From Streptomyces sp. NBC_00234 (GTDB lineage Bacteria; Actinomycetota; Actinomycetes; Streptomycetales; Streptomycetaceae), in assembly GCF_036195325.1 (NCBI RefSeq), contig NZ_CP108101.1, positions 6,572,001-6,636,000 on the forward strand: a stretch of DNA of 64,000 bases, in the 5' to 3' direction. Below are positions 10,688-13,699 of this stretch, one piece after another. Every line of letters starts with the position of its first letter. Positions within the stretch are counted from its first letter, which is position 1. Both the position numbers and the translations under genes were made by a program. The notes beneath the pieces are model-generated. The model was not told the DNA's origin. It saw only the letters and a program-made list of their open reading frames with translations, and made no database searches.

Positions 10688-11665
10688 GTGCAACGCCCCC
10701 ACATGCACGCTGTGTTGACCTGTTCCACCGCCCTGCTCCTGGCCTCGCTCACCGCCTGCGGCGGTACCGCGAGCGCCGACACGCAGAAACCGACGACTCC
10801 CCGCGGGGTGACGGCCCAGGCGGGCAGCGCCACCTCGGTGCACGTCATGTGGGAGCGCGCCTCCGACAACAAGGCGATCACGGGGTACGAGGTCTACCGC
10901 GAGGGCAGGAAGGTCGGCTCCGTACCCGCGGCGAAGCGGATGACCGACATCGACGGTCTGACCGCCTCGACGGCCTACACCTTCACCGTCCGGGCCCGCG
11001 ACGGCGCCGGAAACCTCTCCCGGCCCAGCTCCGCCGCCCGGGTCACGACCCCCGCACCGGCGCCCTCCGACAGCGAGGCGCCCACTGCCCCGGTGAAGCT
11101 GCGCGGCACGGCCGACGGCAGCCGCACGGTCACCCTGTCCTGGGGCGGCTCGACGGACGACGTGGCCGTCACCTCGTACGACATCTACCAGGAGGACTCC
11201 CGTATCCACAGCGTGCCGGGCACCGGGACCACGGCCCGGCTGACCGGGCTGCGCCCCGGCACCGTCTACACCTTCACGGTCCGGGCCCGCGACGCCTCGG
11301 AGAAGTCCTCGCCGGACAGCAACACCGTCGACCTCACCACCGCGTCCGCTCCGGACGCGCCCGCGAGCACCGCCCCCACCGGTCTGCGGACGTCCATGAG
11401 CGCGGAGGGCGGCGAGTCCGTCGTCGACCTGTCCTGGGACCAGCCCGACACGGGCGGTGTGATCCCCGCGTACCAGCTCTTCCTCAACGGGAAGATGACG
11501 ACGACGATCGTCTGGGGCGGCACACCGCCCAAGGGGCGCGCGACGTACCGCCTGACCCTCGGTGACCCGGCGGGAACCCGCTACTCCCTGAAGATCCGCG
11601 CCAAGCTGCCGGACGGCACCTGGGGCGACTTCTCCGCCCAGCGCACGGTCGTACTGCCCGGCTGA
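10688..11665 (+). CDS. Lipoprotein with three fibronectin type III domains
   Basis: This 325-residue precursor has a hydrophobic leader and a lipobox LTAC (about residue 22), so it is anchored outside the membrane. Three FN3 domains follow at roughly 35-120, 130-215 and 225-320. Each shows the expected pattern of Trp or Tyr strands (HVMWERASDNKAITGYEVY, TYTFTVRARD); the third is more divergent. No catalytic domain is attached, which is unusual because FN3 repeats in actinomycetes usually sit in secreted hydrolases. GTG start at 10688 after AAGGCAGG; ATG at 10703 is the alternative. No obvious partner nearby. Confidence 0.85.
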   Translation: MQRPHMHAVLTCSTALLLASLTACGGTASADTQKPTTPRGVTAQAGSATSVHVMWERASDNKAITGYEVYREGRKVGSVPAAKRMTDIDGLTASTAYTFTVRARDGAGNLSRPSSAARVTTPAPAPSDSEAPTAPVKLRGTADGSRTVTLSWGGSTDDVAVTSYDIYQEDSRIHSVPGTGTTARLTGLRPGTVYTFTVRARDASEKSSPDSNTVDLTTASAPDAPASTAPTGLRTSMSAEGGESVVDLSWDQPDTGGVIPAYQLFLNGKMTTTIVWGGTPPKGRATYRLTLGDPAGTRYSLKIRAKLPDGTWGDFSAQRTVVLPG

Positions 11666-11683
11666 CCGGCGTGTCGGGCGCGG

Positions 11684-12313
11684 TCAGAGCCCGTCCAGCG
11701 CATTTCCGGCGGACGTCAGACAGCGCTCGGCCAGCGCGGCGGGGCCCAGTGGTCCCGCCGCGGGCGCGTCGCCGGCCGCCCAGGTCTCCACGGCCACCCG
11801 TACCGCCGCGCCGGCGACCGCGGCGGCCAGCCGGACGTCCAGCCGGCCCGCGCCCTACGTGAGCCCGGCCCGTTCGGCGAGCACCGTCGCCAGGGTCGCT
11901 TCCGACGCGCGGCAGGCGTCGTTCCACTCCGACTGCAGGGCCGGGCTGTCCGCGGCCATCCGCAGCAGCGAACGCACCCACTCCAGCGACTCCGAGGCCG
12001 TCGTGTCCCCGGGGCCGGGAGTCAGCGCACGCACCGCCGCGTGCCGGAGCGCGGCGGGCAGCGGCAGGTCGCCCGGGGCCTCCCGCACCGCCTCCGCCCA
12101 CTGCCCGGCACCGGCCGCCAGCAGGGGTGCGACGGCCTCCTCCTTCGTGGCGAAGTACCGGTAGAACGTCCGCGGCGCGACGCCCGCGGCCCGCGCGATG
12201 TCCTCGGCGCGCGTGCTGCGCAGGCCGTTCTCCGCGAAGAGGGCCGCGGCCGTCCGTGCGATATCCAACCTGGTGGCGGCCTTGCGCCGCTCCGTGAGTG
12301 AGCCACCGTGCAT
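11684..12313 (-). pseudogene. TetR-family regulator interrupted by an in-frame amber codon
   Basis: The frame encodes a normal TetR of 208 residues plus one TAG. Residues 1-152 include the HTH (DIARTAAALFAENGLRSTRAEDIARAAGVAPRTFYRYFATKEEA). The TAG at 11855-11857 follows AERAGLT. The same frame then continues for 56 codons with typical TetR C-terminal sequence (GAGRLDVRLAAAVAGAAVRVAVETW) to TGA at 11684. A single base change explains it. The product would lose the last helices used for dimerisation. It is divergent from the solute-binding protein gene, its likely target. A read error is possible. Confidence 0.75.
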
Positions 12314-12335
12314 GCCGGTCAGGTTATGCCCTCGG

Positions 12336-12383
12336 GTGCCGGTCCTCACCGGCACTGATCGGCGCAACGTGCCTGTGTGGCAC
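12336..12383. promoter_or_regulatory. Two GTGCC...GGCAC palindromes in the TetR/SBP divergent region
   Basis: GTGCCGGT-cctc-ACCGGCAC (12336-12355) and GTGCC-tgtgt-GGCAC (12369-12383) share outer halves and lie between the two divergent starts. CACAAT at 12381-12386 could be a -10 for the solute-binding gene. They are good candidate operators for the neighbouring TetR protein. Confidence 0.55.
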
Positions 12384-12421
12384 AATCTGCCAAGATCGTG
12401 GATGTCGGGATGACCCAGGGG

Positions 12422-13699
12422 ATGGCAAGAGCAGTGCGTCGGCGTCAGTTTCTTCTCAGGACGGCCGGCCTCGCCGGCACCACCGCCGCCTTCGGGCTCA
12501 CCGGCTGCAGCACCGGATCGGACCGGAAACTCGCCGTCCTCGTGGCCAGTTACGACGAGAGCGTGGGTGCCTCGCTCGGCGATCAGTGGGACAGCGTCGT
12601 CGAGGCGTTCGGGAAGAAGCACCCCGACATCACCGTCACCCTCGAACGCGTTCCGTTCAACAGGATCGACAAGGTGCTCGCCAAGCGGGTCGCGGCGGGG
12701 AACCCGCCCGACATCGCCCAGTCGAACATCTTCGCCCCCTACGCCGAGGACGACCTGCTCTACTCCGGGTCCCAGATCTTCAACATCGCCACCCAGGCGG
12801 ACTTCATCCAGTCCTTCGCCGACGCGGGCACCGTCGACTCGACCCCGTACGGCGTCCCCTTCCTGGCCAGTACGCCCCGGCTCTTCTACAACAAGGAGCT
12901 CTTCCGGCGGGCGGGCATCGAAGCGGCCCCCACCTCCTGGGGCGAACTGCGCTCGGCGGCACGGGCGTTGAAGGCGATCGGCGTCAAGACGCCCTACGGC
13001 CTCCAGCTGGGCCCCGAGGCGGCCGAGGACGAGGCCCTCTCCTGGCTGCTGGCAGCCGGCGGCGGTTACACGGACTTCACCGGGTACGACTTCGAGGCGC
13101 CGGCCAACACCGAGGCCCTGACCTGGATACGCGACGAACTGGTCGCCGAGGGGCTGGCCGGACCGGCCCCCGCGGAGCTCAACAGGACGACCGCGTACGG
13201 CCAGTTCCTGGCCGGTGGGATCGGCATGCTGATCGCCCACCCGCTGCTGATGGGCGCCGCGGACCAGGCCCGGATCCCCTACGCGCACGCCGCGTTCCCC
13301 GCGAAGGACGGCGGGACCCCCGCCCCGATCGGGCTGAGCGACTGGCTGATGGCGTTCAGGAAGAACGAGCGCCGTGAGGAGTGCGGCGCCTTCCTCGACT
13401 TCCTCTACAGCGGCACGTCGGCACTCACCTACGGCGGCAGCCAGTCCGCGCTCCCGGTGACGTACTCCGCCTCCGACGCGGCACGCGAGATCCCCGCCCA
13501 GCGCCCGCTCCGGAAGTTCATCGACCAGTTGGCCGAGGCCAGGTTCGCCCCGGTGAACATGCGCTCCTGGCCGGCGGTCAGGGACACGATCCGCACGGAC
13601 ATGGGCCGCGCCGTCCTGCCGAACGGCGACCCCGCCGCCGTACTCAAGGGGCTGAACGAGGCGGCGGCCAAGGCGGAGATGGACGCCGCGGCCGGCTGA
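12422..13699 (+). CDS. Extracellular solute-binding protein (family 1), Tat lipoprotein
   Basis: About 425 residues, a sugar-type ABC solute-binding protein. The leader has a twin-arginine motif (RRRQFLLRTAG) and then a lipobox LTGC, so export is probably by Tat with lipid anchoring. The mature part has the family 1 pattern: VTLERVPFNRIDKVLAKRVAAGNPPDIAQSN, then a binding lobe with NKELFRRAGIEAAPTSWGEL. No permease or ATPase is adjacent, so it must work with a transporter encoded elsewhere, as is common for Streptomyces. The start is uncertain: ATG at 12410, ATG at 12422 or GTG at 12434. Confidence 0.88.
   Translation: MARAVRRRQFLLRTAGLAGTTAAFGLTGCSTGSDRKLAVLVASYDESVGASLGDQWDSVVEAFGKKHPDITVTLERVPFNRIDKVLAKRVAAGNPPDIAQSNIFAPYAEDDLLYSGSQIFNIATQADFIQSFADAGTVDSTPYGVPFLASTPRLFYNKELFRRAGIEAAPTSWGELRSAARALKAIGVKTPYGLQLGPEAAEDEALSWLLAAGGGYTDFTGYDFEAPANTEALTWIRDELVAEGLAGPAPAELNRTTAYGQFLAGGIGMLIAHPLLMGAADQARIPYAHAAFPAKDGGTPAPIGLSDWLMAFRKNERREECGAFLDFLYSGTSALTYGGSQSALPVTYSASDAAREIPAQRPLRKFIDQLAEARFAPVNMRSWPAVRDTIRTDMGRAVLPNGDPAAVLKGLNEAAAKAEMDAAAG

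Follow-up and report, generated by a model that had tools for sequence, protein, structure and literature searches.

The TetR-type regulator gene TetR-A of Streptomyces sp. NBC_00234, assigned by sequence to the SCO3201 family, is interrupted by an in-frame TAG, and a conserved candidate operator stands between it and a divergent gene for a solute-binding protein. We consider it likely that TetR-A is a recent nonsense allele whose product is unable to dimerise or fold, and that control at the intact operator has been lost or handed over. A tolerated recent loss of function is the most likely description of this allele. The window is the whole stretch of 64,000 nucleotides that was analysed (NZ_CP108101.1, positions 6,572,001 to 6,636,000), and coordinates refer to it unless another locus is named.

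11684 to 12313, minus strand: full TetR frame (SCO3201 family, TetR-A) of 209 codons and the natural stop, broken at codon 153.
11855 to 11857, minus strand: TAG in frame at codon 153, placed by the model in the loop that separates alpha7 (last residue 148) from alpha8 (first residue 158).
11858 to 12313, minus strand: encoded 152-residue product, predicted helices alpha1 to alpha7.

The preliminary description had placed a TAG at 11855 inside an otherwise full-length TetR frame, and this was confirmed: read from 12313 to 11684, the minus strand holds 152 codons, the TAG (11857 to 11855), 56 open codons and the natural stop. The same TAG is present in the whole-genome copy, a single contig of 8,274,316 bases. 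We wondered whether a sequencing or assembly error could be responsible, the gene being intact in the organism. Among 11 TetR_C_14 matches genome-wide (including four copies of one tandem repeat), only TetR-A contained an internal stop, and none of the 41 SBP_bac_1 matches did. An interruption is thus unusual in this genome, and a lone odd base among 10 other TetR_C_14 matches and 41 solute-binding matches fits an error. However, the 41 long, unbroken solute-binding matches also speak for good base accuracy, and the assembly is one contig, 100% complete, with 0.04 contamination. In addition, none of the codons found in eight relatives at this position could become TAG by a single change, although the codon of the immediate ancestor may differ. 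Overall, an error is unlikely.

Two features of genome structure were also recorded. At locus L123 (G000:C1:529000-548000, outside the window), a unit occurs four times in tandem with a spacing of exactly 5,094 bases and equal TetR scores. The unit contains TetR and SDR genes, together with alcohol-dehydrogenase-like and PP2C-phosphatase-like genes that were recognised only by eye, and represents either an amplification or an assembly artefact. In the window, the end of a fibronectin-type gene is 18 bases from TetR-A (11665-11684); in L040 this distance is 0.56 kb, and at both L039 and L041 it is 2.6-2.7 kb, reflecting either insertions in these three loci or a deletion in the window.

A TetR match at E <= 1e-25 was present in 175 of the 295 genomes of the genus, paralogues counted in, and among the matches listed an internal stop was found solely in the window's own gene. 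The matches of eight relatives aligned codon by codon extend to query residue 204-209, and those of the 31 aligned relatives run well beyond residue 153. These eight carry sense codons at position 153, namely GAC (four), GCC (two) and TCC (two, with uncertain gap placement, as one alignment sets a gap there). The possibility that orthologues all end at this codon was therefore rejected, since the relatives' frames continue past it.

The constraint on the frame was estimated as omega. For codons 159-200, omega was 0.11-0.32 between the window's gene and six near relatives and 0.12-0.23 in five printed pairs among those six intact relatives. With L013, which is more distant, the value for the window's gene was 0.41, which is the upper end of the range of six intact pairs with L013 (0.18-0.41). 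For codons 1-66, encoding the DNA-binding region, the seven window pairs gave 0.06-0.12. The earlier view that the 56 codons after the stop are open and typical is borne out by these values, which resemble those of intact relatives. Since the codons beyond the stop are as constrained as in intact relatives, the stop reflects either a recent loss or a base error; an old pseudogene was rejected because the constraint shows no sign of relaxation. That both sides of the stop are indistinguishable from intact relatives favours an error to some extent, and the low omega after the stop fits a base error or unseen readthrough equally well. Readthrough or suppression, giving the full protein, would agree with the conserved downstream frame. 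However, the relatives examined have no stop at codon 153, so there is no conserved recoding, and the window contains no tRNA gene; this explanation is highly improbable. The sole departure of the window's protein from columns invariant in the other sequences (32 aligned) is Val to Glu at residue 129, and 8 of the 31 intact relatives likewise depart once or twice from otherwise invariant columns.

The consequence of the stop was assessed on an AlphaFold2 model of the read-through TetR-A frame, built with 31 relatives (mean pLDDT 91.9). The following parts of the frame were considered.

11696 to 11842, minus strand: codons beyond the stop for alpha8 (158-180) and alpha9 (191-206) of the predicted fold, constraint still apparent.
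12146 to 12301, minus strand: residues 5-56, forming the DNA-binding region, where the paralogue TetR-B has the identical residue at 40 of 52 positions.
11927 to 11929, minus strand: codon 129, Glu, aligned with Val in 31 other sequences.

Nine helices were predicted, with alpha7 spanning residues 124-148, and codon 153 sits in a gap-rich stretch of the alignment between alpha7 and alpha8. With the TAG in this loop, alpha8 and alpha9 are predicted to be lost from the product. A review (PMC4486848) describes helices 8 and 9 as the TetR dimer interface, a four-helix bundle, and on that account lost dimerisation is expected for the 152-residue product. The product would keep its HTH, is most likely unable to dimerise or to reach a stable fold, and would leave the operator unbound. 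Autoregulation of TetR-A and control of the solute-binding protein would then be lost, resulting in constitutive expression or in a hand-over to TetR-B.

Alternatively, the truncation is tolerated because the 152-residue protein retains a function, such as weak DNA binding or the formation of pairs with TetR-B. The DNA-binding region is intact, as its low omega indicates, and resembles that of TetR-B, as do alpha8-alpha9, where 29 of 42 aligned residues are shared. However, the product is without alpha8-alpha9, the aligned relatives all extend well past its end, and no natural short form was seen among the matches listed. We regard a working short form as improbable. A fresh loss of function, the other reading offered in the preliminary description, is well supported by the continuing orthologues, the predicted removal of two dimerisation helices and the constraint on the remaining frame.

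The family of TetR-A was determined from its sequence and model. The N-terminal HTH matched PF00440 with 48.9 bits (Pfam cut-off, 24), and the C-terminal part matched the MftR-type domain TetR_C_14 with a Pfam score barely over the cut-off. The best solved proteins by sequence were 4cgr/5efy (phmmer, 3.8e-52), and Foldseek ranks 1-8 for the model were SCO3201 chains throughout. SCO3201 of Streptomyces coelicolor (PDB 4cgr, 5efy and 7pt0) is 48-52% identical to TetR-A and has a like fold. In contrast to SCO3201, TetR-A stops short at codon 153 and lies divergent from a solute-binding protein gene. The two SCO3201-type loci examined (L079 and L118) have an RpoD-like sigma factor upstream (profile search, L079 only), whereas the divergent neighbour in the window is the solute-binding gene. 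The ligand-binding and dimerisation domain of the SCO3201 family is incomplete in TetR-A, with alpha8 and alpha9 missing, as the TAG precedes alpha8. Judged by descent, TetR-A is a member of the SCO3201 family, with the status of a candidate only as a working regulator. An identity as MftR was rejected, since the score of 75.9 bits compares with an NCBIfam MftR equivalog cut-off of 224.9. TetR-A and MftR share the Pfam domain at its marginal score and a similar fold, with 22-23% identity to solved MftR.

The divergent region upstream of TetR-A contains three relevant elements, none of them assigned to a strand.

12378 to 12392: conserved candidate operator TGGCACAATCTGCCA, inside a TGCC-N5-GGCA-N5-TGCC array at 12370-12391.
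12369 to 12383: second palindrome of the preliminary description, GTGCCTGTGTGGCAC, overlapping the left half of the conserved operator.
12336 to 12355: first palindrome of the preliminary description, with perfect 8-bp arms, of a type absent from 109 related loci; role unsupported.

Two GTGCC...GGCAC palindromes had been put forward as operators. Both exist, but their proposed role did not stand, as GTGCCN3-12GGCAC occurred upstream of TetR in 0 of 109 related loci. The first was rejected as an operator on this basis, and the second is simply part of the real site. Such palindromes are not rare in the window, since six loose ones were found against 2.9 expected and 8 of 100 shuffles reached six. 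By comparing the divergent region with relatives, we found the pattern TGGCANAATNTGCCA, usually within TGCC-N5-GGCA-N5-TGCC; this long form was present in 83 of 121 loci, copies of the window's own locus counted. The pattern lay at most 250 bp upstream of TetR in 80 of the 109 loci, which hold some species twice, and in 58 of 80 loci when restricted to named genomes. The exact pattern was missing from the other 29; among these, the near relatives L011, L012, L013 and L054 have sites with one or two changed bases in the half-sites. Across the genus, it occurred in 96 of 295 genomes (twice in one), compared with about 16 matches for the reversed control pattern. The window's genome holds one exact operator copy and, allowing one mismatch, the sole other site is upstream of TetR-B.

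Section 15 of PMC7324645 gives the SCO3201 site as TGGCAGATTCTGCCA. Its reverse complement, TGGCAGAATCTGCCA, is one of the two common operator forms found here, and the window's form, differing by one inner base, is the other. The window's form also adjoins the open relatives L045, L046, L049, L052 and L063, indicating that the operator has not decayed. An operator without decay could mean that the regulator still works, which counts against a loss. A scan of 12250-12480 for sigma-70-type promoters returned nothing, and such a scan says little in Streptomyces. Among the matches listed, no related paper on a Streptomyces TetR with GTGGCA and TGCCAC was found, judged by title and the start of the abstract. 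Sites of the pattern also occur at L144, L145, L146 and L149, with no match to TetR-A, TetR-B, SDR or the solute-binding protein in the fetched 4.5 kb.

The gene on the other side of the operator is as follows.

12434 to 13699, plus strand: divergent solute-binding gene (SBP_bac_1), lipoprotein by eye, with start GTG 12434 aligned with relatives.

ATG 12422 is a possible alternative start, and GTG 12377 is an unlikely one because it overlaps the operator. In near relatives, TetR is likewise divergent from the solute-binding gene, and malate synthase is near TetR at L039, L041 and L042, though not at L040, the fourth of the named nearest loci. Of 11 loci examined, 4 (L014, L020, L043 and L151) have an SDR gene downstream of TetR-A, 78-82% identical. 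At L140, the SDR gene faces the solute-binding gene across the operator and TetR-A is missing. A tree built from 90 proteins groups the 65 rows that have no solute-binding match in their fetched locus into one clade (100/100), which includes L079 and L118 and is nested among 21 rows with such a match; the nesting forks (89/85 and 90/79) are not fully supported. This topology suggests that the ancestor of the SCO3201 type was linked to the solute-binding gene. These loci further suggest that the original partner of the SCO3201 family was the solute-binding lipoprotein, joined in some genomes by an SDR enzyme.

We examined whether TetR-A has been lost beside the solute-binding gene elsewhere. 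Solute-binding proteins with at least 55% identity were present in 12 of 295 genomes, a threshold set after viewing the list (the next were 50% and 48%). Among these 12 genomes, the adjacent TetR-A was open, by coordinates, in nine (G149, G019, G075, G081, G161, G280, G289, G002 and G103) and truncated in the window's genome; in G059 and G175, no TetR-A was found near the solute-binding gene within the fetched 5 kb. G059 retains TGGCACAATGTGCCA beside this gene, and G175 retains TGGCACAATGCGCCA, with one half-site mismatch. In G059, the SDR gene is directly divergent from the solute-binding gene, as though TetR-A alone had dropped out, and the single TetR match genome-wide at 1e-25 is TetR-B. 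G175 has a second TetR match genome-wide, which may be a TetR-A located elsewhere. The next two solute-binding genes (G086 and G263, outside the 12) had neither such an operator nor a TetR in the fetched stretch.

In the window's genome, the strongest match besides TetR-A itself is the paralogue TetR-B (G000:C1:2265387), with about 55% identity and 4.0e-33; the match that follows it has 1.6e-12. Another SDR (oxidoreductase) gene stands divergent from TetR-B, with TGGCACGTTTTGCCA between them. TetR-B resembles TetR-A in the DNA-binding region, including 10 of 11 residues around alpha3, whereas for three further TetR proteins encoded in this genome the agreement with TetR-A there is only 18-22 of 48-52 residues. 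Its operator, TGGCA-N5-TGCCA, has the half-sites and spacing of the TetR-A operator, and the inner bases differ. Unlike these parts, the ligand-binding part is identical at only 35 of 90 residues, and the neighbour is an SDR oxidoreductase gene. In 17 loci taken as TetR-B, a perfect TGGCA-N5-TGCCA was upstream in 16 and a site with one mismatch in one, and 15 of the 17 had that SDR gene. Given this likeness in DNA-binding residues and half-sites, TetR-B could occupy the orphaned TetR-A operator. A hand-over, in which the operator is kept after repeated TetR-A loss because TetR-B controls the solute-binding gene, is possible, though on balance we doubt it. As a marker of TetR-A loss, TetR-B was rejected as non-discriminating; it is also present in G019, G075, G149 and G280, where TetR-A is open, so finding TetR-B is by itself no evidence.

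SCO3201 has been termed an orphan regulator (PMC13367870). PMC7324645 reports that over-expressed SCO3201 blocks differentiation and the production of the antibiotic actinorhodin, and its introduction cites disruption of sco3201 in S. coelicolor as without obvious phenotype. On the basis of that citation, loss of TetR-A is expected to be tolerated. Constitutive expression of the solute-binding protein, as anticipated in the preliminary description, is plausible but remains a prediction, since the genome holds an intact paralogue whose operator has identical half-sites and since the sco3201 disruption is cited as silent. An alkyloxazole signal raises sco3201 expression and has been proposed for ligand tests by the authors of that study (PMC13367870); the suggested pairing with the solute-binding and SDR genes offers a concrete place to seek the SCO3201 signal. 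The broken TetR-A is a natural test of a paralogue taking over an operator. If true, the hand-over would rewire the solute-binding gene to a different signal, as TetR-B has a different ligand pocket, and the window, G059 and G175 would be up to three instances. TetR-A is thus an ordinary recent nonsense allele in a known family, yet an instructive one, yielding a corrected operator, a link between the SCO3201 family and a solute-binding protein, and a possible hand-over to TetR-B that can be tested.
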